64,000 nt of DNA, taken from NCBI GenBank assembly GCA_024682655.1, contig JAIKYZ010000024.1, positions 1 to 64,000 on the forward strand, written 5' to 3'. The stretch comes from Treponema sp. GTDB taxonomy: Bacteria > Spirochaetota > Spirochaetia > Treponematales > Treponemataceae. Positions 1,001 to 36,764 of the stretch are shown piece after piece. A program made the translations under genes and the position numbers. Each line of letters starts with the position of its first letter. Position 1 is the stretch's first letter. The notes under the pieces are model-generated. The model was not told where the DNA came from. It did no database searches and saw nothing but the letters and a program-made list of their open reading frames with translations.

Positions 1001-1190
1001 GAAATATTTAATTGTTCTTTCTATTTAAGAGGGGCTCTGTTCACCGCCACAGCGCCCCTACGGTTGCAAAATTAATTTTGCAACCGACGCCGCGGGTGCA
1101 TGCTGACGCATGCCTAGGGCAAATCCCGCGGCGGGTTCGAACAATTAAGTACTTCTCAGAGAACTGCTAAGTTAGTTTTCTAACTATAAG

Positions 1191-1223
1191 AGGCGTCTTA
1201 CGATAAGTGAGGCGCCTTTTTTT
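1191..1223 (+). terminator. intrinsic terminator in second tail cassette
   Basis: AGGCG-t-CTTA...TAAG...CGCCT stem followed by a T run. Confidence 0.7.
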
Positions 1224-1429
1224 ATTTTAAATGAAGTACTTAATAGTACGTTCGATATAAGCGGTTCGCTGTAACGGGGCACAGCGAACCTACGGTTGCA
1301 AACTATAATTTTGCAACCGACGCCGCGGGTGCATGCTGTCGCATGCTTAGGGCAAATCCCGCGGCGGGTAAGAACAATCAAATACTTCAGCGAAAACTGC
1401 TAAGTTTAAGTTGATTTGTTAGATAAAAG

Positions 1430-1795: not shown

Positions 1796-2785
1796 ATGGA
1801 TGCAGAAAAGACTGGAAACTTAATCAACTTTCTAAGAACAAAAATGGGAATTACCCAAAAAGAACTTGCAGCCAAAATTAATGTAAGCGATAAAGCTGTG
1901 AGCAAATGGGAAAGAGGTGATGGCTGCCCAGATGTAGGAATACTGCCTGTCCTGGCAAAAACTCTCGAATGCGATGTAGATTCCCTTATAAAAGGAGAAC
2001 TTCCTTCTACCACCCCAAGAAAGGAACTTACGGAGGAAGAAGTTCAGGCTCTTCTGGCTGCTTCTGGGGGAGAGGAAATGAAAAAGGATCTGTCCCTCTT
2101 AAAAAATCCAGGCCCAAGAATTAAGATTTACGATTTTAAGCGCCCTGATTTATTCAACAAATTACAGCTAAGAAAAATTGCCAATATTTTTGAAATGCTC
2201 TGTGAAAAAGTTGCAATGGAACTGGTTGGCAACCGAAAGGATCTTTTGGGGGTAAAACTTGTTTCCGTAGACCTGCTGACAAACGAAGAGTTTATACGCT
2301 CCCTTCCAGAAAGAACTTTCTTCTATTCCTATGATTATGATAATTCTGGTTTTGCCCTTGAAATTGACCCGGAAATTGGAAAGGTTCTCCTCAAGCATGA
2401 TTTAAAAAAGTATCCCGAGCTTACTCAAACTGATGCTGACTGTCTTAATCTTTCTTATATAAATAATTTTTCTTCTATGCTGCAAGAGATGATTTATGAA
2501 AATACAAATAAAAGTATTTCTTATCAGGATTTTTCAAAAGCCCTGACGGCTTGCAGCATTCTTCCCCGCAGCCTTGGACAGACTCCAACTTCAATGTGCC
2601 TCCTTGTTACCCTGGCCCTGGAATCGGATGCTGCCTCCGGAATGATAAATATTCAGTTTAATTACACTTATTTTTTTCAAAACTCTGTAATAAGCTGGGA
2701 CTTTTTGGAGATCCAATGCAGGGACCTAAAATCTGCCAGCTTTCGGATATTAAAAATAAGCCGGTGGAAAACAATGTTTTTGTAG
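1796..2785 (+). CDS. XRE-family HTH domain fused to FliM-like domain (N-terminal part of a frameshifted gene)
   Basis: HTH: TQKELAAKINVSDKAVSKWERGDGCPD; FliM-like: RIKIYDFKRPDLFNKLQLRKIANIFEML, TNEEFIRSLPERTFF, FALEIDPEIG. Confidence 0.8.
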   Translation: MDAEKTGNLINFLRTKMGITQKELAAKINVSDKAVSKWERGDGCPDVGILPVLAKTLECDVDSLIKGELPSTTPRKELTEEEVQALLAASGGEEMKKDLSLLKNPGPRIKIYDFKRPDLFNKLQLRKIANIFEMLCEKVAMELVGNRKDLLGVKLVSVDLLTNEEFIRSLPERTFFYSYDYDNSGFALEIDPEIGKVLLKHDLKKYPELTQTDADCLNLSYINNFSSMLQEMIYENTNKSISYQDFSKALTACSILPRSLGQTPTSMCLLVTLALESDAASGMINIQFNYTYFFQNSVISWDFLEIQCRDLKSASFRILKISRWKTMFL

Positions 2786-3171
2786 AATTCGGCCGTTTTT
2801 CTCCAGAAGGCCTTCTTCTTGAACCTGGCTCAATTCTTTTAAGTTCAAAAAGAGCAGGGGAGCCCCTTAATGTTCTTGTGGGAAATGAATGTCGCTTTAT
2901 AGGAGAGGTTGTTGCGGTCGAGGAGAACTTTGGAGTCAGGATTATTTCTGCTTCTAATATCATTAAATATGATGAAGAACATTATCTGGCCCTTCGTCTA
3001 GGGGCCTGCTACCACGACCAGGAGGAACTTGCAAAAATACAAGAAGGAACTGTCTTAGATTTGGATAGTCTTGCGGGAGATCCAATTTCTATAATCCAGG
3101 ATGGAAAAACCGTCGCTCGCGGCGAAGTTGTAATTGTAGATGATTTTTATGGTGTAAGAATTTGTGATTAA
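2716..3171 (+). CDS. two SpoA/FliN-like domains (C-terminal part of the same gene, -1 frame)
   Basis: GSILLSSKRAGEPLNVLVGNECRFIGEVVAVEENFGVRI and GTVLDLDSLAGDPISIIQDGKTVARGEVVIVDDFYGVRI match SpoA/FliN C-terminal pattern; frame continues upstream to the T7 tract at 2671-2677. Confidence 0.75.
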   Translation: MQGPKICQLSDIKNKPVENNVFVEFGRFSPEGLLLEPGSILLSSKRAGEPLNVLVGNECRFIGEVVAVEENFGVRIISASNIIKYDEEHYLALRLGACYHDQEELAKIQEGTVLDLDSLAGDPISIIQDGKTVARGEVVIVDDFYGVRICD

Positions 3172-18000: not shown

Positions 18001-19003
18001 AGAGTTAACAACAGAAGAATCTACAGATATAGAATTCAAAGTAGCTGACACCGGTCTTTCTCAAACGCCAATGCTTTCAAAGCCAGAAGAAGAAATCAAA
18101 GACCGCGCTGTCCCAAGATTTACAAAACAGCCTTCAGAAGAATGGGCTCCTCAAGAAGCTTATACTGCTGAATCAATTCCAGGTATGAGATCTTTTGAAG
18201 AAGAAATGGGTGAATATCAAAACGAAAAAGCCTTCCTCTACCAGGATGAATTAGACTTTGCCTTAAATCCAGAAGAAGATACAGAAGAACACGACCAGGA
18301 ACTTCAAGTTTCAGAGCAAATTGCAATGGCAGATTTACCAGTTGTAAATCCATTCTCAAGCTTCCTTTCAGAAGAAGCTGCTCAAAAGGTGGAAGAAATT
18401 ACAAATTACTCTTTGGAGAAAGAAGAAGCTAAAGCAGAAGAAGAAAAGTCAATAATTTTGGCTTCGGTAAAAGAAACAGAGCCAGCAGAAAAGGCCGCCA
18501 CCTCAGTTAATACTGCCGCCCCAGCTAATTCAAGCGCAGCCACAGAAAATACTGCAGCTACAGTAAACACTGCCGCCCCAGCTAATTTAAGCGCAGCCAC
18601 AGGAAATACCGCCGCCGCCACAGTTAATACTGCTGCCCCTGCTAATTCAAGCGCAGCTACAGTAAAAACTACCGCCCCAGCTGATTCTGCCTCAGTTGAT
18701 AAAAACCTGGCCCTCGCAGATAAGGCAGAGTCAGAAAATAAAGCTACTCAAAGTACAAATGATTCAGATTTAATTGAATCTAAAAATACAGAAAACAAAA
18801 CTAATACTGAAAGTTTAGTTAAAAATACAATTAAAAATGCACAAAAATCTGAAGGCGAAAGCAAGGTAAAAGAAGCAAAATCTAAAAAAATTACCTTAAT
18901 TTCAATTTTAGTGGGAGTTGTTGCGGGAGCAGTCCTAGCTTTTTCTGCTTCAAAAAAAACAAAAAAAAAGGCAAAAACAATAGAAGGTGAGAAAGATGAA
19001 TAG
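15059..19003 (+). CDS. beta-barrel / transglutaminase-like / TPR protein with repeat-rich region and C-terminal TM helix
   Basis: Barrel-like N-terminus; YRGGDCDDLSILVCSLFEAIG...PGHIFMAFD transglutaminase-like core; TPR; acidic DDDDDFPPDDGPDGDGPDPDDD linker; C-terminal ITLISILVGVVAGAVLAF followed by lysines. Confidence 0.8.
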   Translation: MSGKKARKLRKSKKISKISIAALTGLCIAAAPLSAGGEVLLGLYPHVTFPVLKFDDSLKTGFGGGLELTYRPFTYFDLSLLGDYQYYLFDTSDSVGSLSLFSGGLGAAYHLPLSDRLSLNIGADVQAYKAKYQKSEDDYYNLPGVKAGATLSLSYKINPSVAVSSKAGASHYKAGNTGLITGLDVQPGITFNFTKAFMRPKNLDMSMNALEPVFPVLYSWYDNNSFGSVSIQNKEDATITDVKVSFFQPQYMGQPQECGSVESLKRGESLDVNLKAFFNEQMLELIERTECQASVIVEYKYLGQKREQSFAMLVPVYGRNNMSWADDRCASVFVSSKDPAAMWFAKYITSVVRDNVRSGVALNIQYAMGIFEALDQFGLNYVIDPTSAFADNVGTASIDFLQFPYQTLMYRGGDCDDLSILVCSLFEAIGIKTAFITIPGHIFMAFDSGLTIDQAKNEFLSLDELILDYDNNEVWVPLEITLTDEGFNKAWKVGAREWNQSDKDGTAMLYKMEDSWKIYKPVNVPGASSHFTLPDEKLVGKLFSHSVDEYILKQITPQVVAFESKLKNNQSPELYNDFGVLYARYGLFKKAEAQFRVARRQDYLPAILNTANLFYSMKDFGRAQKWYEEVLTRDEDNILAILGVARCAYEIGNYDVCDKYFEIVYNTNPQLAAEFAYLSAFESSQGRSFTLADRLMNTTWLESNDKLPQNNQALAVKDSLTSESDTLLTVDSANPVDDLELPDFNQALAVLAPDSANKRFDDDDDFPPDDGPDGDGPDPDDDITFDEPLQVEKSYKGILSQLEFEVLSTEEIQAIAEKTFEENPDLIKTPLLQADAPEKIAQLEEDKSFEEKLDSAVQNAESFVYPEEVIQVADLTLNTENPTEKANLENAESFVYPEEVIDIGDLTLSDKTQGIATAQPTLEPIATPTQEIAAAQPTVEPIATPSQEIAVVEQTVEETATTTQEIAAAQPDFQDSDFLAEELTTEESTDIEFKVADTGLSQTPMLSKPEEEIKDRAVPRFTKQPSEEWAPQEAYTAESIPGMRSFEEEMGEYQNEKAFLYQDELDFALNPEEDTEEHDQELQVSEQIAMADLPVVNPFSSFLSEEAAQKVEEITNYSLEKEEAKAEEEKSIILASVKETEPAEKAATSVNTAAPANSSAATENTAATVNTAAPANLSAATGNTAAATVNTAAPANSSAATVKTTAPADSASVDKNLALADKAESENKATQSTNDSDLIESKNTENKTNTESLVKNTIKNAQKSEGESKVKEAKSKKITLISILVGVVAGAVLAFSASKKTKKKAKTIEGEKDE

Positions 19004-22000
19004 AATTGTTAAAAAATTAATTGTAAGTTTAGGTGGGATCCTCTTATTAACTTCTTTAGCAACTTCCTGTAAAAACTGGATGGCAAGCGATCAATTTTTG
19101 TCTGCCATTGAAAGTGATGTTAGCGTTGCTAATGCACAAAAGATAAACGTATATCTTCGTTATGCAAATACTAAAATGGGTACAACCGCCCCAGTTAACT
19201 CTGACTGGCTGGAAGAAAAAGTTGGTGTTTCTTTTAGTATTTCTGCAACAACCAATGATGATTACGCCTTTGTAAAATGGGCTGCCTTTAGTGTAGAAGA
19301 CTTCCCAACTTCAAAACAGTATTCAAATTTCATCTATTCTTCTTATGATGATTACAAAAAAAATTACAGTGGATATGAATATTCAAGCGAAGAGGTAAAA
19401 TTTACCGACCCTTATTCAAACTCAACTACAGTTACTGTAAATGTAGAAAGCGATAGAACAGTCTTTATTATGCCAATTGTTTCTGCCCGTCCTGTTTATG
19501 TAACTTCAAACCCAGAAGACAATGCCACTAACGTAGTAAAGAACATGACTGTTCGTATTCTTTTCTCAAAACCTCTTGATGAATCTTCTTTGACCGGTGC
19601 TTTTACAGTAAGTCAGGGACCAATCGTACTGTCAGAATCAAACAGTGATTATGTTGATATTACAGACAATTTCCAGGAACCAATTTTAAGTAAAAGTAAA
19701 AAAATGGTTACCTTACAGCAAAAAGAAGGTCCTGAATCAAATCCTCAGCTTTATTATTTTGATGCCTTCCAAAAAATTCTTATTAATATTTCAAACGAAA
19801 TTAGAGACAGCGATGGAAATGCCATGGCCGAAGGTGCAACAATCACATTTAAAACAAACGATAAGACCGATACCGTTGCTCCAAAAATCACAGTTTTAAA
19901 AGCAAGTACAATACTTGAAGACGATTCTAGTGTAGACTTCTCAAGTGCTTATGATTATGCAGATTCTGTAAATGGTGGTTCAACAAGAATTCAACCTTCT
20001 GCAATTTCTGATTTTGATGCCGCTCTTCAAACTTACTTTAAAGATGCAAACAATAAAGAAACAAGAATTGCTGCAATGTACTCACAAAGAACAACAGGTC
20101 ATGTTTACCTGGACATTGAAGCAACAGAATATACAGAAGATTCTGGTACCGCTACTGGTGATGATGCTTCTGGTTCTACAATTACAATTAATTCAACTCT
20201 TGTTGTTAATGCAGACGGAACAATTGCAGATAATGGTTCTAATAAAGAATCAATCTACACTTATTCAGATGCTTCTTCATATACCTTTATTAGTGGAAAT
20301 AATAATGCCGTTACTTCTGATGTTACTTATAAAGAAGAAGTTGACGAATTCGGTAATGTAAAATCTGTTAAGGGTATTCTTGTAGATTACGATTTGAACT
20401 TCCAGGATAAACTTAACGACGGTCAGGAAGTTCCAGACGGTCTTTATAGAATTGATATTTGGGCAGTTGATGCAAACGGTAACGATGGTTCTACACAAAA
20501 TCGTATTACTTCAATGTACGTAATTAAAGATACAACTCCACCAGATGTTACAACAGAAGCTAAAAAGGTTGAAACTTATTCAGATTCAGCACCATACGCA
20601 TATTATAATGCAGAAACTTTAGCCACCCTTAAATTTAAAGTAGGCGAAAATAAAGAAATTGTAGATTCAACAACTGAAAAACTTGCCTGCGATGTTTCAA
20701 AAATCAAATGGCTCTTTAGTACTTCTTCTACAAGTCCTAAGGCAAGTGATTCTAACTGGTCTTACATTACTCAGGATACAAGTGGTAAAGTATTCTCTAC
20801 CGCAAAAGCTCCAGAAAGTGATGGTCCTGCATCTGTTTACGTATTCTTAATGGATGATATGAATAATATTTCTCAGGCCCAGGAACTTGATTCTGTTTAT
20901 TACGATAATACAGTTCCAGAAATTGGAACAATTGAATGGATTTCTGCTTCAACATTAACAGCCGATGCTCCAATTACAGTAAACTCTACACAAAATCAAT
21001 ATATGGAAAAGGCTTTAAGAATTCCATTTACCGAAGCTTATTCAGGACTTAAACGCCTTACTCTGGAAATTAAAAACGAAAGTGGTACTTCAGTTTCTAC
21101 AAATCCAATTGCCAGCGGAGAAAATGCCACAGAAATTTACTATCTTAACTCAGATCTTCAGGAAGCCCTAAAACTTGACTGGGAATCAAAGACCGATAGC
21201 GATGGAAATACCTTTGTTGAATTACAGATTCCTTCTTCTTCAGAATTAACAAATCTTACAAGCGGATATCTTTTCATTGCAAATTTACATTTCAGCCAGA
21301 ATCTTGATGCAATTCTTAATTTAAAATTTAATCTTTATGATGCAGCCTTAAATAAGACCGCAGATATGAAAACTACTTTCTCTTATGATAATACTGCTCC
21401 ACTTGTTGAAAGTATTACACTAAATGATTTAGTAGAAAGCACTCCTTATGATGGTTCTGCTTCTAAACAATTCCTTTCTAAGAAAGGCTTTACAATTGAT
21501 TCTTCTTCAAGGATTCAAAATACCGCAAGCATTACCTTAGAAATCAAAGAAAGTGGTTCTGGTGTAAATGTAATTACTCTTAAAGATGACATTAATCTTA
21601 CAAGTAATACAATTGTTTTACTTGGCCAGGAAGAAATTGATTCAAGCCAATATCAGCTTGATACAAGTAAAAATACAATTACCTTTACAGACTTTATTGA
21701 ACCTGTTTTACAGTCAGATTCAAGCTTTGAAGTTACAATTAAAAATCTCCACTACGCAAATACTGGTTCAACAAAAAATAAAGCAAATATTCAACTTACA
21801 GACTTTATCCTAAAATCAAGTACTACAAGCGATAGCGACACCCCAGATCTTTATGTTGATAATTCAAATCCAGTTTTTGAATCAATCACAATTAAAGATT
21901 TAGATTCAACAAATACAGAAACAAATACAAAATATACAAATCAAGATACAGTAAATCTTATAGTAAAGCTTAAGTCCGAAAGTGATTCTGGTCTTAAGAC

Positions 22001-25000
22001 AATTACACTCACAAACGCCAAATTTACTGACGATTCAAAAATCTATCTTGGAAATGATGCTACAGGAACAGAAATTGCTTCTACTATTTCCAGCGATAAA
22101 ACTACATTAACTTTAACAAAGGTGGCTTCTGAAACTTCTAGTCAAACTTACTTTATTACAAACCTTAAATTTACAGATTCAAGTAACGGAAAGAAAACAA
22201 TTTCTCTTACAGCAAAAGATTTAGTTGGCTGGGAAAGTGAATCTACAAGTGCAAGTATTACATTAGATAACGTAGCTCCAGAACTTTCTGGCGATTTAAG
22301 TTGGGTAGTTACAGATGGAAAGAGCACCGCAGGAATTACAAATCAAAATATTATAAGTGGACAAAAACTGCTTGTTCCATTTACCGAAGTTACATCCGGA
22401 ATTTCTTCTATTAAATTTGTAGTTACAGATAATACAGATACTGTTTACCAGACCCCTGTGGTTTACGATAGTGCCGAAAAATACTTTACGCTAACTTATG
22501 TTAATGGTGACGATACTTCTTCTTATGGTACAACAAGTTCTTCTGAACCTGGCGATAGCTTTACTTGTAATGGCGAAAAAACTGGTACTTATGAAATTCA
22601 AAATATTGCCATTGCAGATAACGTAACCGAAGGAACTTATACAATTAAAGTAATTCTTACCGATATTGCAGAAAATGTTCAGACTGTAGAAAAAACAATT
22701 GAAATTTCAAATGATTCAACAAAACCTGTAGTTTCTAAGATTGAAATAGAAGAACTTATAAAAGCAGGAGAATTAGGAATTACAGCTGGCTCTAATTTAT
22801 CTGATACTTATTGGGTAACAAGTGATTATTTAGACTTAGATTCAGGTACAACAAAACTTTCTTTATATATCACAATAAACGAAACAAATTCTGGTCTTAA
22901 AACACTAACTCTTGGAAGTCCTTCAACAAATACTAATTATGGTAGTCCATGTCTTTCTACTAATTCTGCTATTTACTTAGTTGGAGAATCAGGCCTAACT
23001 GAAATATCTAGTTCTACTTACAGCCTTTCTTCTAACAAGAAAATAATAACCTTTACAAGTGGAAATTCAAATTTAAAGGGCGAAAATTTAAAATTTAAGA
23101 TTACTAATGTTGCTTTTAATAAGCAAGAGAATATAAATTTAATTTCTGTAAAGGCTAGCGATCTTGCTTTGAATGAATCTGAATCAGTGGATGAAGTTTA
23201 CTTAAAAGATAGTCAAACTAGTATTCAAAGTGGTACAACAGGAGGTTTCTACTTTAATACAACAAGTCCACAAATTTCTACTCTTACTTTGGTAGATAGA
23301 GAAACTACTAATGGAATTGCAGCCCAGACAGGTTATACTAACGAACAAATTGTAGACCTTAAAATGGAATTATATATGCCATCGGATTCTATGAATGGAT
23401 ATAATTCCTTTACTTTGGATGGTGCAAAATTTATAAAAGATGGTAGTGATGCAAGTATAATTACAATTGGCACTACAGAAATAACTTCAGATAGTTATGA
23501 AATTTCAGATGACTTAAAGACAATTACCTTTAAAAATTCAGATGGACCTAAAGTATTGCGTAGTTCTTCATGTAAAAATCTTACTTTTGAAAATATCTTA
23601 CTTGATTCAGACGAAAATACCTCGCAAACTATTGGCGTAACTACTAAAGATTTAAGTGGCATGGAAAGTGCTAAAAAAACATACAATATTACTCTTGATA
23701 CAGAAGAACCATTGTGGGATGGTGCCACAAAAGAAGATCCTACTAGTGGTTATGGACCTTATGTTTATGGTAATGGTGCTACAGACCTTAATTTTGTATA
23801 TCCAAGACCTACAGGTGGAACAAGTGATAAGTCTGCTATTGGGGTTCATTTTAATACTAAAAATTCTGCTGGAACATACATTCGTTATTTCTATAAATAT
23901 CCTAATAAAACTTTCCGTTTTGGTATGGATTTTACAGACAATGTTGCCTTGAGGGATAATTCTACAAGTGGATCTGAAAGTTTACTTTATATTAAATCTT
24001 CTGATTCCTCGGACTATACTAATTTAGCAGTAAATACTACAAGTACAACAAGCCTACTTAAAGTATCAGGTAGTTCAGATACAAGTAAGCAAGTTGTAGC
24101 TAATTTAGCTTCCGGTACTTATGTAGTAGCCGATAAAGCCGGTAATATTTCTAAAGAATATACCTTTAATATTGTAGAAGATTATACAAGACCAATATCT
24201 TCTGCTGGATATAACGCTATAAGATATGCTACTTTGGCCTTACCTGATGATGGTGCAAATGTTTACAGACCAGATTCTGTAACTTCAACGTCTTATGTAG
24301 ACTCTACAACTGAAGATGTAGACTCTACAACTGAAGATAATTATGACTTTAAGGATGCTGGTAAAAATTCTTGTGGCGATTCACTTTACTCATATCATTA
24401 TGTAAAAAGAGCAGGTAAGTATAAAATAGTTGTAAAATATGCAACTGGTTTAACTACTGCTGATATTCAGATAAGTGGCAACAATACCCCTTCGCGTTTT
24501 GGTGCTTTGTCTGATGATGTTGTAGGATCTACAACTAGTGCACCTCTAGATTACTATTCAGTTACTCATTGGTATGGAGTATACCCATACATAAATTCCA
24601 ATACAATAAAATACCAGCCAGCCTTCCCAAATAACACTACAACTCCAAGTGGACAGACCATTCAAAAATATTTTGGTTTTGAAGCAAATGAAACATTAGG
24701 TGATGCTGACTGGGATACTGAACATTCTACTTGGCATAAATACAAAAAAGATAGTGGTGACTATACAGATGGTGATAATCATGACACCATTGTTAGTAGA
24801 GTAAATTCTGAAGGAAATATCGAAATTGATATTCCAGATACCAACATTCCTCCATTAACACTTTTATTAAAAGATGGTTGCGGTAACTTAAACTATATGG
24901 TCCTAACTTTCTATGATGACCGTGTTACAAAGGCAAATTCTGATGGCCAAGGTGAATCCTTTACTGCATACTACGGTGTTTCTTTCTACACTGATCCAAA

Positions 25001-28000
25001 ATTAGGTAATTCATCAGATACAAGAAAAGTATTGCAAAATGTTGCCGCTTATACCGGTGGTGGTGCCTCTGAATATACTTTTGGTGATACAAGCTATAAA
25101 TGGGGAAATCAGACTTCCTCTTACACGGATGCTGATGGAAAGGGTGGAACTTCTGAACTTGGTTATTTAATGAGAGATAATGTAGAGAAGTTAACATATT
25201 ACAATCCTAGTAATAGTCACATTGGTACTAAACTTTATAAAATTGCCCTTACTGTAAATGGCGAAACAGGTAAAACTTTTGATTCTTGTGTACCTACAAC
25301 AGATACCTCAGAATATACCGCAAGGGCTAAAATTCTTTGGACTACTGAATCAGGCACACCTTCTTACAGTGATTTTTCGGGTACAAATACTTCCGATTGG
25401 TTATATTGTCAAGCATCATCCAATGGAGATGTACACTTCTTCTTTGATTATCCAACTAGTCTTACCCAAGGAACTCCTTATTATTTCTGGTACTTAGTAG
25501 AAGACCGTGTAGGTAATTATGATATTAATACAATTGTTAATGACCTAGATGATGAATATAACCGCTGGGTTTATGATGCAAAGGCACCGACTATAAAAGT
25601 AAGATATGATGGTCGTTCTCCATGGTATTATAGTTTAAGTGAAGTTGATAAATTAGTTCCTGCTAATAATGGTTATAAATCATATCAGAACGGTAAAAAT
25701 GCTTATGTTTGGGGACCAGTTTCAAGAAGAAGTAGTGCTGAATTTAATCGAATGGAAGGTAATGGACTTTTAACAAGAGACACAACCCTTGATAAAACAG
25801 GTTTCGATAGCATATTTAGTCAAGTAGAATATTCTGGCGGCACATTTAATTATGAATATCTACCAGCCTTTGATCTTGATATAACTGATACGACTGGTAT
25901 TTATGCTTATTTTTATGTTGTACTCCCACCTAGTGAAGATTTGCGCTGGCCTTCAGTTGTTTCTCCAAAAACTATTGATTCATATAATAGTGTTACATCA
26001 GATACTTCTTCTAGTCCTTGGTTTTATGGTAAGGGTGTTGAAGGTTGTTTAAGAGAAATTGGCTCTGCTATAAGTGATACAAACTATAAGGTTTATGCTT
26101 ATCGTTCATCTGGCAAATACGAGGGAACCTTTACTGGTACCAAGATTTTGCCTCAAGTACCTGTATTAAATTTAAATGAAAGTTCATCTTCAACTACAGG
26201 AAGTAGAATTGCATTATTCGTAATGGATTGGGTAGGAAATATTGATTCATGTCCTTTGGGATCTTTTGGTACTAGTGGCCCAATTTGGTTTAAAGATTCT
26301 ACTGCTCCAACTGGTTATTCATATAGTGATACTGATATACAATATCTTGATTCATATGTAGAAGGTAGTCACTATATTAAACGTGAGTATAGTGAATCTA
26401 ATGGTTATTATATAAATTATTTACGTATTGCTGGCAGTGGCAAGGATGAAAATAGCCCAAATTTGAAGATTTATATTCCAATTTCTCCATTATCAACATC
26501 TACAGATGTAGCGTCAGGATGGTATTATGACAAGTCAGGCTCTGGAATTGCAGGATTCGATTTAAGAAGATATGATGATTCTGGAAATCCTTTATTAATA
26601 GATATAGGAAATGCTTGTTGTGATGATAACGGACCTTATTTAGAACTTTCTTATAGTGATTATAGTTTTTTGACTTCTTTGGCAGAAAATGAAAAAAAAT
26701 TTATCGCTTTTAATATATATGACAATGTAGGAAATTGTAGTTATGGCAATTTCACTTCTTGCATTGATTCTACTCCACCAGATTTGTCACCAACAATTTC
26801 TCTTTCAAATAGTGATTATCTTCATAAAAAAGGTCACACCGGTAAATATACAAAATCCTTCTCTCTAAGTTCAACAGAAGAAAATGGAAAAATAGATTCA
26901 TCTAAAATTATAACTTCTTCTAAAACTCCAGAAGATGATGATTGGACTACTTACAGTGATATTTACTATGTAGACCCAACCGGTGCTTCAAGTCTTCGTA
27001 TTCAGTGTACTAATGGTGCTGAATGGGCTTCTGACACAAGAGCTCTTTATTTAAAGAAATGGTCTGGTTCAGCTTGGGATGCGGCTTCTGCTGCTTATTC
27101 TTCTTCAAGTGCAACAACTTCTCTTTCTTTAAGTTATGCATCTGAGGCATATTACCAATTCTCAATTAGTGATATGACAGGTAATACTACTTATTATCAT
27201 TTTAAGACAGTTTCAGATACAACTATGCCAGCATTTAAAGACGGTTATCCAAAAGTCGTGCCTACGAAAGGTATTGCTCAAGTAAATGGTGATACTCTCT
27301 ACTACAATCAGATTGATGTTCAAGTTTCTGGAACCGATGAAGGTAGTGGTGTAAGGTCTTGTTTATATAGGACTAACATCTCTAGAACAAATAAATTCAT
27401 TACTGACTCTAACAAGTATGATTTTACTGATTTGACATTCTCTAGTGATTTTTATACTAGTGGTTGGTATACAAAAGAGGATCCTACTACAATCCCTCTT
27501 AATCCAGAAGTTGAAGGTACAAAGGAATGCCTTTGGGTAGGAATAAGAGATGGTGTACTTTCTTATGGGGACTCTTCTTATGATTACAATTGTTTCACAC
27601 CAAAGATGTTAGCTAGTACATACAATGCAACATATATTTGTCACGATGAAACTGCCCCTACAGTAAAAGAAGGTACCTTTACTGCAAAGTATCAACCTCA
27701 TTATATAGAGTGGGATTCAGATAAGTTCAACACTACTTATGATTCAGATGCTTCTACACTTCTCATGGAAATTACTGATTCTAGAACAACTAAGGTTACC
27801 TATACCCCTGCTGCCCAAGATTCAAGTGGAATTTTAGGTTGGATAGTACAAGATAATGAAGAAAAACCAACTGTTGATTCTTCTACAGATTTGGCTGATC
27901 TTAAAACATCATTTACTTATACTTGTGGAACTGGTAATGATATTCCTCTTGATACTAGTGAAGTCGTAAAATATTATTTTGCAGTCGATTATGCAGGAAA

Positions 28001-30857
28001 TGTTTCTGACCCTATTGCTGTAACTTATAAATACTCAAATAAATATATTCCAGAAATTACTGATATTTCTTATGAGGGTATAGTTCAGGTTGATAGTGTT
28101 AACTATTACAAATCACCAGTTCTTACCTTTACTGTATCTTCTGGTGTTAAATCTACTCCTCAAAGTATTTTGATTACTTGGTCAGACTCAGATTATGAAG
28201 AATATGATTTTGATGATAATACAGTTACTGGCCCAATAAGCTCAGATGGTAAATACATTTACACTTGTAAATTAAGCAAATTACCAAGTGGTTTAAGTGG
28301 AAATACTCTTTCTGCTTGGGTTTCAAATAAATATTCATATTCTGCACAAGAAAAAGAATTAACTTATAGTGGCGTTAATAGTTATACAGAAGAAACTGAT
28401 GTACCAAATGTTACAAAAGCTGAAATTTCTGCTAATTCGGAAGAAAAAACTTATTACGATTCAGATTCAGATCCAGATAAGGCAACACTTTATTTCAATC
28501 CAGATCAAACAAGTATTTCCTTAACTGTTACAGGAATTACAGATGCTACTTCTGGTTACTATAATTCTTCTCTTGTAACAGATGAAGCAGATCTTGTAAT
28601 GCCTGAATCTGAAAGTACTGCAATTTCTATTACCGCTCCAAGTTCGGATTCTGCTGTTTACAAACTTTATGCCTGGGATAAGGTAGGAAATTATAAGTTT
28701 GTAAAAGATATAACCTTTGTAAAAGATTCTACTGCTACTGAAATTCAAAAAGTTACCCCTTCAAGTAATGTGATGACAGGTTTCTATTATAATTCAGATT
28801 CAGATGCCAAAAAGTTCTTCTGGAATGGTGAGCAATCAATCACCTTTACTTCTTATGTAAATGATTCAGATAATGATATTTCTTACTATTATTATAATGA
28901 CGATAAAGAAGATAATCGTTCTACAAGTGGAGAATTTACAATTACACCATCAGCTGAAGTAACAGAATATAATTTCTATGCAGTAGATAGAGTTGGTAAT
29001 GTAAGCCAAGCCTATACAATTACTTCGGTAAATGATACAAGTGCTCCAGAAATTCCAACTGTAACATTTGGCTCTGTAGATGATATTTATCCTGTAGATA
29101 ATAATTCTACTGCCCTTACTTCTGGAAAGGTTTACTATATTAAATCTTCTACTTATTCAGAAAATGGTATTGGAATTAATATTTCTTCTAGTGATACAGG
29201 ATCAGGACTTTCTAGTGTTGGAATTGAAGGCCAGACAGCAGCCGCAACTTACACTCTTAAACCAAGTGAACAAACAACTTACACAATAAAAGCAACTGAC
29301 AAGCTTGGTAATTCAAGTACATTCACTCTTATCATCAGTCCAGATTCAATAGGCCCTCAGCCAACCGGAACAAGTTCTCATGCTCCAAATTATGGAGGTG
29401 GAACAACACCTAAGTTTGATTCTGATGGCGATGGTGTCGCAGAAGCTGTATTAGGTGTTGTAGGAACTGATGGTTCTTATACAGCTACTGGTACAATTAA
29501 CCCAGTCTATGGTTCTGGATTAGAAAATGGTTCAGAATATTCTACCAACTTTTATGATGAAGGCTTACAATTAAATGTACCTGTTGCAAGTGATGATATT
29601 GTGGCCTTTGGTCTTGTTACTGGCCCATCATCTTCAGAAGATCCAACTAAACCTACAGAATGGACAGAAATTTCAGAGAGTAATTATTCTGAAGGTATAT
29701 TAACTGTTACTGTTCCAGAAATAACAGATGAATATTCATTTATCTTCCTTTGGATGAAAGATAGAGTAAATAATTTGTCTGTATTCAATCTTGGAAATCC
29801 TTCTAATTGCTGGAGTAACTGGTGGATTCAGAATACTCCTTCTACAAGTGCTAGTTATTCGGTAAGTGCGGGAAGTTATTCTAATAGTAATGGCACACCT
29901 GTTGCAAATGTTGCAGTTTCAATTTCTGGACTTTCGAGTGCAGGTGCTATTTCTCAAATTACACTTGAAGGTTTAAGTACAACACAATCTTATGAAGCTT
30001 ATTCACAAAGTAGTACTGCAACTTTAACTTGGGCTGTAACATCGATTGTAGTAACAACTTCAGAAACAACTTATACAGTAGATTCAACTAATGCAGTTCT
30101 AAATTGTGAAAATAATGATGGAACATTAACATTCAAAGATTCTGCTGGAAATGCTCATCCATATCTTCATACTGGTGGAATTGTTACAGTAAATCTTACT
30201 TGTTCTGGTTCTAATTCTGATTATAATTTAATTAATGCAGGTGCCTCTGCTCCAACTCCAACTCTAACTTCTGTTACAGACTTTGGTGGAAACGCTGTTA
30301 CTCCAAGTATTGCAAACGGTAGTTTAAGAAGTCGTATTGCCAGAGGTCTTACAAGCTTTACTTCAAAAGTAAAATCAAGTGTTGGCTTTACAAGTAGAAC
30401 TAGAGTAGAAAAAGTAGCTTCTAATAAGACAAGTTCTGTAAGAAAGCAGAAAACTCCTGTAAAAGTTGCAGAAGTTAAAGAGCTCCCAACTTCAACTATC
30501 CAGGATATCCCTGAATTCCAGTCAGAAGATATTAAGGCTCAGTTGAATAGAAGTTTCCAGGCTGGAACTATTGCTTTGGATCAAATTACTTCAGATAATA
30601 ACCAGGGTACATCAGATAGTCTAAAAAAGAACCAGGGTTCTATTCAAAATGTTGCACCTTTGTTCGTAGATGATGCTAATAATAAGGTTAAACTCGAAAA
30701 TAGAGTAACTTTATCTAAGGCAGATGGAATTTTGGAAGTAAGTGAACCTGTTGCTAATATCGATTGGGTATTAATTATCACAGTTTTAGTGGGTGTTGTA
30801 ATCTTTGCAATTTGTGCTGTCAGTATGATAAGAAGACTTACTAAAAAAGGTGAGTAA
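18996..30857 (+). CDS. giant (~3,950 aa) Ig-like-repeat surface/periplasmic lipoprotein with C-terminal TM helix
   Basis: ATG at 18996 preceded by gaaggtgag and overlapping upstream stop; lipobox LATSC; recurrent D-x-GN / DTTPP / DSTAPT Ig-like linkers; C-terminal WVLIITVLVGVVIFAICAVSMIRRLTKKGE. Confidence 0.85.
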   Translation: MNRIVKKLIVSLGGILLLTSLATSCKNWMASDQFLSAIESDVSVANAQKINVYLRYANTKMGTTAPVNSDWLEEKVGVSFSISATTNDDYAFVKWAAFSVEDFPTSKQYSNFIYSSYDDYKKNYSGYEYSSEEVKFTDPYSNSTTVTVNVESDRTVFIMPIVSARPVYVTSNPEDNATNVVKNMTVRILFSKPLDESSLTGAFTVSQGPIVLSESNSDYVDITDNFQEPILSKSKKMVTLQQKEGPESNPQLYYFDAFQKILINISNEIRDSDGNAMAEGATITFKTNDKTDTVAPKITVLKASTILEDDSSVDFSSAYDYADSVNGGSTRIQPSAISDFDAALQTYFKDANNKETRIAAMYSQRTTGHVYLDIEATEYTEDSGTATGDDASGSTITINSTLVVNADGTIADNGSNKESIYTYSDASSYTFISGNNNAVTSDVTYKEEVDEFGNVKSVKGILVDYDLNFQDKLNDGQEVPDGLYRIDIWAVDANGNDGSTQNRITSMYVIKDTTPPDVTTEAKKVETYSDSAPYAYYNAETLATLKFKVGENKEIVDSTTEKLACDVSKIKWLFSTSSTSPKASDSNWSYITQDTSGKVFSTAKAPESDGPASVYVFLMDDMNNISQAQELDSVYYDNTVPEIGTIEWISASTLTADAPITVNSTQNQYMEKALRIPFTEAYSGLKRLTLEIKNESGTSVSTNPIASGENATEIYYLNSDLQEALKLDWESKTDSDGNTFVELQIPSSSELTNLTSGYLFIANLHFSQNLDAILNLKFNLYDAALNKTADMKTTFSYDNTAPLVESITLNDLVESTPYDGSASKQFLSKKGFTIDSSSRIQNTASITLEIKESGSGVNVITLKDDINLTSNTIVLLGQEEIDSSQYQLDTSKNTITFTDFIEPVLQSDSSFEVTIKNLHYANTGSTKNKANIQLTDFILKSSTTSDSDTPDLYVDNSNPVFESITIKDLDSTNTETNTKYTNQDTVNLIVKLKSESDSGLKTITLTNAKFTDDSKIYLGNDATGTEIASTISSDKTTLTLTKVASETSSQTYFITNLKFTDSSNGKKTISLTAKDLVGWESESTSASITLDNVAPELSGDLSWVVTDGKSTAGITNQNIISGQKLLVPFTEVTSGISSIKFVVTDNTDTVYQTPVVYDSAEKYFTLTYVNGDDTSSYGTTSSSEPGDSFTCNGEKTGTYEIQNIAIADNVTEGTYTIKVILTDIAENVQTVEKTIEISNDSTKPVVSKIEIEELIKAGELGITAGSNLSDTYWVTSDYLDLDSGTTKLSLYITINETNSGLKTLTLGSPSTNTNYGSPCLSTNSAIYLVGESGLTEISSSTYSLSSNKKIITFTSGNSNLKGENLKFKITNVAFNKQENINLISVKASDLALNESESVDEVYLKDSQTSIQSGTTGGFYFNTTSPQISTLTLVDRETTNGIAAQTGYTNEQIVDLKMELYMPSDSMNGYNSFTLDGAKFIKDGSDASIITIGTTEITSDSYEISDDLKTITFKNSDGPKVLRSSSCKNLTFENILLDSDENTSQTIGVTTKDLSGMESAKKTYNITLDTEEPLWDGATKEDPTSGYGPYVYGNGATDLNFVYPRPTGGTSDKSAIGVHFNTKNSAGTYIRYFYKYPNKTFRFGMDFTDNVALRDNSTSGSESLLYIKSSDSSDYTNLAVNTTSTTSLLKVSGSSDTSKQVVANLASGTYVVADKAGNISKEYTFNIVEDYTRPISSAGYNAIRYATLALPDDGANVYRPDSVTSTSYVDSTTEDVDSTTEDNYDFKDAGKNSCGDSLYSYHYVKRAGKYKIVVKYATGLTTADIQISGNNTPSRFGALSDDVVGSTTSAPLDYYSVTHWYGVYPYINSNTIKYQPAFPNNTTTPSGQTIQKYFGFEANETLGDADWDTEHSTWHKYKKDSGDYTDGDNHDTIVSRVNSEGNIEIDIPDTNIPPLTLLLKDGCGNLNYMVLTFYDDRVTKANSDGQGESFTAYYGVSFYTDPKLGNSSDTRKVLQNVAAYTGGGASEYTFGDTSYKWGNQTSSYTDADGKGGTSELGYLMRDNVEKLTYYNPSNSHIGTKLYKIALTVNGETGKTFDSCVPTTDTSEYTARAKILWTTESGTPSYSDFSGTNTSDWLYCQASSNGDVHFFFDYPTSLTQGTPYYFWYLVEDRVGNYDINTIVNDLDDEYNRWVYDAKAPTIKVRYDGRSPWYYSLSEVDKLVPANNGYKSYQNGKNAYVWGPVSRRSSAEFNRMEGNGLLTRDTTLDKTGFDSIFSQVEYSGGTFNYEYLPAFDLDITDTTGIYAYFYVVLPPSEDLRWPSVVSPKTIDSYNSVTSDTSSSPWFYGKGVEGCLREIGSAISDTNYKVYAYRSSGKYEGTFTGTKILPQVPVLNLNESSSSTTGSRIALFVMDWVGNIDSCPLGSFGTSGPIWFKDSTAPTGYSYSDTDIQYLDSYVEGSHYIKREYSESNGYYINYLRIAGSGKDENSPNLKIYIPISPLSTSTDVASGWYYDKSGSGIAGFDLRRYDDSGNPLLIDIGNACCDDNGPYLELSYSDYSFLTSLAENEKKFIAFNIYDNVGNCSYGNFTSCIDSTPPDLSPTISLSNSDYLHKKGHTGKYTKSFSLSSTEENGKIDSSKIITSSKTPEDDDWTTYSDIYYVDPTGASSLRIQCTNGAEWASDTRALYLKKWSGSAWDAASAAYSSSSATTSLSLSYASEAYYQFSISDMTGNTTYYHFKTVSDTTMPAFKDGYPKVVPTKGIAQVNGDTLYYNQIDVQVSGTDEGSGVRSCLYRTNISRTNKFITDSNKYDFTDLTFSSDFYTSGWYTKEDPTTIPLNPEVEGTKECLWVGIRDGVLSYGDSSYDYNCFTPKMLASTYNATYICHDETAPTVKEGTFTAKYQPHYIEWDSDKFNTTYDSDASTLLMEITDSRTTKVTYTPAAQDSSGILGWIVQDNEEKPTVDSSTDLADLKTSFTYTCGTGNDIPLDTSEVVKYYFAVDYAGNVSDPIAVTYKYSNKYIPEITDISYEGIVQVDSVNYYKSPVLTFTVSSGVKSTPQSILITWSDSDYEEYDFDDNTVTGPISSDGKYIYTCKLSKLPSGLSGNTLSAWVSNKYSYSAQEKELTYSGVNSYTEETDVPNVTKAEISANSEEKTYYDSDSDPDKATLYFNPDQTSISLTVTGITDATSGYYNSSLVTDEADLVMPESESTAISITAPSSDSAVYKLYAWDKVGNYKFVKDITFVKDSTATEIQKVTPSSNVMTGFYYNSDSDAKKFFWNGEQSITFTSYVNDSDNDISYYYYNDDKEDNRSTSGEFTITPSAEVTEYNFYAVDRVGNVSQAYTITSVNDTSAPEIPTVTFGSVDDIYPVDNNSTALTSGKVYYIKSSTYSENGIGINISSSDTGSGLSSVGIEGQTAAATYTLKPSEQTTYTIKATDKLGNSSTFTLIISPDSIGPQPTGTSSHAPNYGGGTTPKFDSDGDGVAEAVLGVVGTDGSYTATGTINPVYGSGLENGSEYSTNFYDEGLQLNVPVASDDIVAFGLVTGPSSSEDPTKPTEWTEISESNYSEGILTVTVPEITDEYSFIFLWMKDRVNNLSVFNLGNPSNCWSNWWIQNTPSTSASYSVSAGSYSNSNGTPVANVAVSISGLSSAGAISQITLEGLSTTQSYEAYSQSSTATLTWAVTSIVVTTSETTYTVDSTNAVLNCENNDGTLTFKDSAGNAHPYLHTGGIVTVNLTCSGSNSDYNLINAGASAPTPTLTSVTDFGGNAVTPSIANGSLRSRIARGLTSFTSKVKSSVGFTSRTRVEKVASNKTSSVRKQKTPVKVAEVKELPTSTIQDIPEFQSEDIKAQLNRSFQAGTIALDQITSDNNQGTSDSLKKNQGSIQNVAPLFVDDANNKVKLENRVTLSKADGILEVSEPVANIDWVLIITVLVGVVIFAICAVSMIRRLTKKGE

Positions 30858-35795: not shown

Positions 35796-36545
35796 ATGGC
35801 ACGTACACATTATATCGCTGGAAACTGGAAAATGAACACAAGTAAGGCAGAAGCTGTTGCTTTGGCTAAAGACTTGGTAGAACAGTTAAAAGGTAAAACA
35901 AACAAATACATGATTGGTGTTCCATTTGTATATCTTGATGCAGTTGCTCAGGTTGTAAAAGGTTCAAATATCATTCTTGCTGCTCAGGATTGTGCTGCAA
36001 CAGATAACGGAGCTCACACAGGTGAAGTTTCTACTACAATGTTAAAAGACATTGGTTGTCAGTGTGTAATTCTTGGACACTCAGAAAGACGTCACGAAAT
36101 TGGTGAATCTGATGAATTAATCAACAAAAAAGTTCGCAAGGCTTTAAACGATGGTCTTGAAGTTGATCTTTGTATTGGTGAACTTTTAGCAGAACGCGAA
36201 GCAGGAGAAGCAGAACAGGTTTGTGCTTTCCAGCTTTCTGCAGGTTTGGCAGGGGTTACTGCTGAACAGATGAAAAAGGTAACAATTGCTTACGAACCAG
36301 TTTGGGCTATTGGTACAGGTAAAACTGCTACTCCAGAAGATGCTCAGGCAATTCATAAATTTATCCGTGGATATATTGCAAAACTTTACAATCAGAAAGT
36401 TGCAGACGAAGTTATTATCCAGTACGGTGGATCTATGAAAGCTTCTAACGCTCCAGAACTTTTGGCTCAGCCAGATATCGACGGTGGTTTGATTGGTGGA
36501 GCAAGTCTTAAAGCTGAAACATTTGTACCAATCTGTGTACTTTAA
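35796..36545 (+). CDS. tpiA: triosephosphate isomerase
   Basis: GNWKMN, ILGHSERR, AYEPVWAIGTGKTATPE, GGSMKASN. Confidence 0.98.
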   Translation: MARTHYIAGNWKMNTSKAEAVALAKDLVEQLKGKTNKYMIGVPFVYLDAVAQVVKGSNIILAAQDCAATDNGAHTGEVSTTMLKDIGCQCVILGHSERRHEIGESDELINKKVRKALNDGLEVDLCIGELLAEREAGEAEQVCAFQLSAGLAGVTAEQMKKVTIAYEPVWAIGTGKTATPEDAQAIHKFIRGYIAKLYNQKVADEVIIQYGGSMKASNAPELLAQPDIDGGLIGGASLKAETFVPICVL

Positions 36546-36764
36546 TTTACAATTGATAGACCCTTTTGCGGGGGCAAAAGGGCAGACGTCGTGATTGCTC
36601 ACCAGTTCGCAATCTTAGGGCAAATCGCCGCCTGTGTTCCAATCTGTGTATTATAATTTACAATTGATTGACCCCTTTGCGGGGGCAAAAGGGCAGGCGT
36701 CGTGATTGCTCACCAGTTCGCAATCCTGGGGTAGATCGCCGCCTGTGTACTTTAATTTACAATT
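36525..36764 (+). repeat. tandem ~111-bp cassettes repeating the tpiA C-terminal tail
   Basis: Tails ccaatctgtgta at 36528 and 36639, partial third tail (tgtgtactttaatttacaatt) at 36744; structured cores between. Confidence 0.88.

Follow-up and report, generated by a model that had tools for sequence, protein, structure and literature searches.

What are the folded sequences that stand directly behind the stop codons of the sugar-metabolism genes gap and tpiA in this gut Treponema genome, and do they belong to one family? The window considered here is the whole stretch of DNA analysed (64,000 nucleotides), and all features below lie on its forward strand. A sequence-only reading had described these structures as multi-stem cores sharing a conserved unpaired string, TAGGGCAAAT, and had passed over the gene-tail copy and the inverted tail copy that belong to the unit of each core. 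The existence of the folded cores is confirmed, yet each forms only a part of a larger repeated unit. Moreover, TAGGGCAAAT is not the defining feature of the family, because the majority of gap units in the genus contain hairpin cores of another kind, in which it is missing (covariance model R1, below); what gap units have in common is a tail copy, a stop codon, an inverted tail and a GGT junction.

On the 3' side of gap (type I GAPDH, 5-937, with its 5' end beyond the window; Pfam Gp_dh_N/Gp_dh_C, NCBIfam TIGR01534), tandem units span positions 904-1540, each built in the same order from last codons and stop, terminator, an inverse of the first ~19 nt of the tail (hereafter INV), a multi-hairpin core and GGT. 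The active gap tail, delimited from the sequence and from its copies, consists of the last codons (10 residues) and the stop (904-937), is directly preceded by GGT at 901-903 and opens unit 1. This unit reads ..CAGATGGT up to the junction and AAGAACAATTAAATATTTC..TAA beyond it, followed by an intrinsic-terminator-like hairpin with a T-run (968-1000), by INV1 (1001-1019), the exact inverse of AAGAACAATTAAATATTTC (904-922), and by core 1 (1020-1136), whose stems I, II and III are supported by folding and covariation, whose unpaired TAGGGCAAAT lies at 1115-1124 and which closes on GGGT (GGT at 1134-1136). INV1 matches its own tail at 19/19 positions and the next tail at 15/19. Displaced gap tail 2 (1137-1170), a synonymous variant of the active tail that starts TCGAACAATTAAGTACTTC and ends TAA, opens unit 2, which has its own terminator (1188-1223), unrelated in sequence to terminator 1, its own INV2 (1233-1253), nearest to tail 2, and a core 2 (1254-1369) that is 86% identical to core 1, bears TAGGGCAAAT at 1348-1357 and ends GGT. 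Displaced tail 3 (1370-1403), again a synonymous variant, opens unit 3, in which INV3 (1464-1482) agrees with tail 3 and a truncated core 3 (1483-1540) runs into the 3' fragment of an unrelated gene, which ends near 1647. All gap tail variants of the window code for one peptide. The orphan fragment itself (..GLMAWEYGQD.., 1535-1647) adjoins the truncated core directly and has no Pfam match; we take it to be reminiscent of GH18 chitinases. Elsewhere in the window, an in-frame fusion links an HTH_3 domain to the beginning of a FliM-like protein (1796-3171) that apparently continues in another frame (ORF 2716-3171), that is, a fusion plus a frameshift, and a single open reading frame of 3956 aa occupies 18987-30857.

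The second target gene, tpiA (35796-36545; Pfam TIM, NCBIfam TIGR00419), has two units (36527-36746), which are shorter than the gap units, have no T-run terminator and show a weak INV. Unit 1 (36527-36637) comprises the tail PICVL-stop, a hairpin (36561-36582) and a stem III (36583-36634) with TTAGGGCAAAT at 36615-36625; unit 2 (36638-36746) comprises a synonymous tail, a hairpin (36672-36693) and a stem III (36694-36745) with the altered motif CTGGGGTAGAT. The last displaced tpiA tail (TGTGTACTTTAA) lies at 36743-36764, and the DNA 3' of it matches the flank on the secG side in a relative that lacks the unit.

With regard to structure, gap cores 1 and 2 fold as the earlier reading had described, with stem I at 1030-1059 and 1263-1290, stem II at 1061-1086 and 1293-1319, and stem III at 1088-1133 and 1321-1366, respectively, the last enclosing a GCATGC hairpin and the 11-nt unpaired YTAGGGCAAAT. 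Taken with their flanks, their energies reach z = -6.5 and -6.9 against dinucleotide shuffles, none of which equalled them. The proposed likeness of the tpiA layout proved partial: the architecture of stem III is common to both (a 9-bp outer stem, T, a 6-bp hairpin, the 11-nt bulge, the outer stem), but tpiA cores have one other hairpin instead of two. The support for the tpiA cores (36561-36634 and 36672-36745) is comparative, because alone they fold no better, in terms of significance, than shuffles (z -0.6 and -1.5). In a comparison of seven sequences (the two complete gap cores and the two tpiA cores of the window, and three other Treponema tpiA loci), standard pairs fill 97% of pair cells, as against 75% after shuffling and 29-43% after a slide of 1-3 columns, and 8 of 15 pairs are altered on both sides. 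In the 9-bp outer stem, gap (CGCCGCGGG) and tpiA (CAGGCTGCG, from other species) differ throughout, and the 11-nt bulge is kept. In folding energy, the minus strand is more stable by 2.2 kcal/mol on average (p 0.0007), but G-U counts are 25 versus 30, so that this gives no clear strand preference. As for the string said to be conserved in all four cores of the window, it is intact in three and changed in the second tpiA copy; the 2.74-Mb genome contains six occurrences of TAGGGCAAAT, of which three lie within the window cores, and no surrounding structure was seen at the remaining sites.

Beyond the window, copies of the gap tail were counted with a degenerate pattern for RTIKYF. In at least 26 of 98 genomes of Treponema, extra forward or inverted copies lie no more than about 0.6 kb from where gap ends; a reversed control pattern gave no such clusters at gap in the same set. 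Model R1, which describes the commonest gap core, matches 28 of the 98 genomes, nearly all at gap, with compensatory change in 11 of 12 pairs; at two of its loci, no recognisable tail was present in the stretch examined. Model R2, built on the cores with TAGGGCAAAT, matches 10 of 196 genomes, nine at tpiA and one elsewhere, the window genome being one of the nine and having two gap cores that match as well. R2 bears out the idea of a conserved unpaired string within covarying stems, a string that may, as proposed, be a recognition signal for a structured RNA or folded-DNA substrate. The distribution of R2 matches agrees with the predicted clustering at stop codons, 12 of 13 in the 196 genomes being located where gap or tpiA ends; the match in G190 lies away from both genes, between short direct repeats. 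Comparison with Rfam, also proposed earlier, placed the cores in no family: nothing exceeded the gathering score except an unrelated tmRNA in L082. In a limited reading of the literature, we found no published description of gap/tpiA tail units. Order-wide, a single genome outside the genus has an array (G330, L327), and it belongs to a sister genus of the same family; BLASTn with the core in 97 relatives matched the window genome alone. At genes other than gap and tpiA, a scan of 400 kb of G001 for repeated C-terminal peptides revealed smaller units at fliG and ilvC, and tail units were also seen at a solute-binding protein gene and, in another genome, at a further gene. Two matches filed as bacteriophage (MT836613.1 and MT835787.1; L011, L012) were considered as phage att sites and rejected, since they carry gap-pgk-tpiA-gpmI and other chromosomal genes and look like bacterial gap-pgk-tpiA DNA; a plasmid match was a chance terminator.

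The junctions are precise. Two target points are distinguished at gap, namely A (ATGGT) and B (TGGT within Trp-Tyr); the junction ends in GGT at gap and in GT at tpiA, with variable bases next, and INV inverts the ~19 nt beginning there. When 26 intact displaced tails are compared with the active gap tail, all 60 codon changes are synonymous, a count that omits the junction codon, which does vary, and nine further displaced copies with insertions or truncations. Five tpiA cases show 22 synonymous codon changes and one nonsynonymous change; several active tpiA tails end TAG, and the displaced ones end TAA. The supplied tail hence preserves the encoded C-terminus, in all 26 intact gap pairs and, but for that one change, at tpiA. 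INV is nearer to the left tail, that of its own unit, in 36 of 44 units, to the right tail in 6, with 2 ties. It also tracks the synonymous variants of its own tail, none of 20000 shuffles being as good for types A and B each, a test inflated by shared ancestry, yet one in which tail variants recur across distant cores; Ser TCA/AGC variants are matched by INV without exception in 20 type B units. Most type B units then have a gap stretch (11 residues) with a third structured insert (coreY or coreX) at A, a further insert in displaced type B tails for which the cassette model set out below does not account. CoreY, a structured insert of ~65 nt (..GTCAATAACTTCCTNNNGGCAAACG..CGACGTA), lies at GA/ sites and almost exclusively within displaced gap tails, in more than 10 species (L085, L070, L052, L091, L092 and others), and is tandem in L079; another structured insert (CATTTTCGG..GGTTGCGAGTGACGCAGCAACC..CCGAAAATG..GCGCCCC..GGGGT) takes the same position in the gap arrays of L080, L082, L093, L331, L332 and L336.

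Cores can be alike inside one genome (0.86 in the window genome and 0.97 in G001, hence 86-97%) though UTR and terminator are unrelated; they diverge fast between genomes, similar cores being found mainly in related species. Some arrays consist of near-identical units (identical in L092, 0.99 in L082, and also L132). The DNA beyond the last displaced tpiA tail matches, in three cases out of six, the native flank of a relative without units; in none of the six did unit DNA match the native tpiA flanks of relatives.

On this basis, our leading interpretation, to which we give a probability of roughly 40%, is that the cores belong to non-autonomous, site-specific mini-cassettes (about 100-280 bp) inserted a few codons before the stop. 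Such cassettes would insert into particular genes, in gap after ..ATGGT and in tpiA after ..TTYGT, and each would supply its own last codons and stop, plus a terminator in gap; a cassette that brings its own gene end would therefore leave the protein unchanged and displace the old tail downstream. INV, core and GGT may together form a recombination site acting as a folded single strand, a role suggested by the pairing of INV with the start of its own unit, which resembles an integron cassette, in which the 5' arm of the site pairs with the leading bases (R'' with R'). Were a unit free (circular), its first ~19 nt, next to the crossover, would find a perfect pairing partner in INV, and insertion of units at the gene-proximal site would be the work of a trans-acting enzyme. 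The repeated units, the precise junctions, the synonymous-only differences among intact gap tails and the covarying stems, all of which we count as observed, fit units that would be mobile in one piece and provide the end of the gene; against this stands that no enzyme was found among the candidates examined and that neither a free circle nor a recent insertion was seen. A further step, which we regard as rather unlikely, would make this an integron-like system without integron parts, in which ~19 nt of the target gene serve as pairing arm, the recombinase is an unrecognised one and tails spread between Treponema species.

The main rival, and a serious one, is duplication and transfer without an enzyme. 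Here, a 3'-end structure (the tail-INV stem and hairpins) would be kept for an RNA or DNA role at highly expressed genes, arrays would arise by tandem duplication, and tail variants would be acquired through transformation and interspecies homologous recombination. The covariation of tail-INV pairing at synonymous sites speaks for this explanation, as do the near-perfect tandem repeats of some arrays (L092, L082, L132), which tandem duplication can explain, the resemblance of other genes (ilvC, L191) to a duplicated tail with hairpins, and the synonymous-only differences, which also fit ordinary interspecies recombination at gap. We nonetheless consider it possible rather than probable: it sits poorly with precise junctions and with similar cores among unrelated UTRs and terminators in one array, INV is expected to be seldom transcribed with the gene because the gap terminator sits between tail and INV, and the structure is not required, since most genomes of the genus are without it.

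An enzymatic rival would see in the units single-strand elements of REP/RAYT or IS200/IS605 type moved by a Y1 (HUH) transposase. Hairpin cores fit this proposal, and like REP/RAYT palindromes and MITEs, the units are short, non-coding and hairpin-rich. In G001, a REP-like palindrome, ACATTCGCACGCACCTGCTACGAATGTGT, is scattered through the genome (L111-L118) and is related to the 3' hairpin of the gap core, and the window genome encodes one Y1 protein. Unlike such elements, the units are gene-specific in location and carry a coding tail, no MITE-typical terminal inverted repeats were seen in them, and gene tails are not known as cargo of IS200-type elements. Y1 genes, present in 21 of 98 genomes, show no association with units: they occur in 5 of the 28 genomes with cores, against 6 expected, and two unit-bearing genomes, G043 and G001, have none, which makes this rival improbable. 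Group IIC introns, found at terminators and attC sites, share an association with terminators, and a role in cassette formation has been proposed for them (PMC7923331), but no intron was matched by Rfam here and reverse transcriptases do not track units as would be expected of retroelements such as group II introns, retrons or DGRs (10 of 28 core-bearing genomes, 8 expected; none in G000 and G043). A model in which the units are themselves introns to be spliced out was also rejected: the displaced tails are in frame, yet terminators lie inside the units.

Slightly less probable still is that the units are cassettes of Treponema chromosomal integrons that IntI captured at secondary sites. Treponema is known to harbour integrons (PMC3607928), and the topology is cassette-like: an array of units, a folded site whose 5' arm is complementary to the unit start (INV against its own tail), and similar sites but unrelated payloads within one genome. 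The differences are as clear. The junctions show GGT and variable bases, not G/TTRRRY, so that no R' box GTTRRRY with crossover G/TT is seen, the R' box of T. brennaborense being reported as GTTAGGT (PMC3607928). The complementarity here is ~19 nt long and gene-specific, the payload is a gene 3' end, and the target, where the arrays begin, is the end of the gap or tpiA coding sequence, with neither intI nor attI nearby. Tyrosine recombinases occur in 15 of 15 genomes tested, and G001 has an integrase with a long insert of the kind that we ascribe to IntI, which we counted in favour. In the short array flanks (0.5-1.5 kb), however, no integrase was seen. The complete genome G043, with two units and no Y1 or RT match, has one intact tyrosine recombinase match and one IntI-like gene with internal stops; it is also without either of two XerC/XerD-like matches seen in most other genomes. 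Finally, that INV and core form a guide RNA (19-nt guide, hairpin scaffold) that leads a nuclease to the gap tail, the unit being copied by repair, is very improbable: complementarity of guide length starts exactly at the junction and gap is specifically targeted, but the guide would target itself because INV matches its unit's own gene best, and a promoter scan found nothing upstream of INV.

The mini-cassette interpretation also recalls integrative elements that rebuild the 3' end of the tRNA or protein gene they enter, likewise inserting inside that end and supplying what is missing; the units differ in being only 100-280 bp long, with no integrase or other gene, and in having an inverted tail copy and tandem stacking. 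If it is true, they would be among the smallest self-contained mobile units, harmless in that they bring the ends of essential genes with them, and would resemble an integron cassette composed of gene tail, terminator and folded site. As regards how genes come by attC sites, units in which the pairing arm follows synonymous variants of the gene itself would provide natural intermediates for a test.
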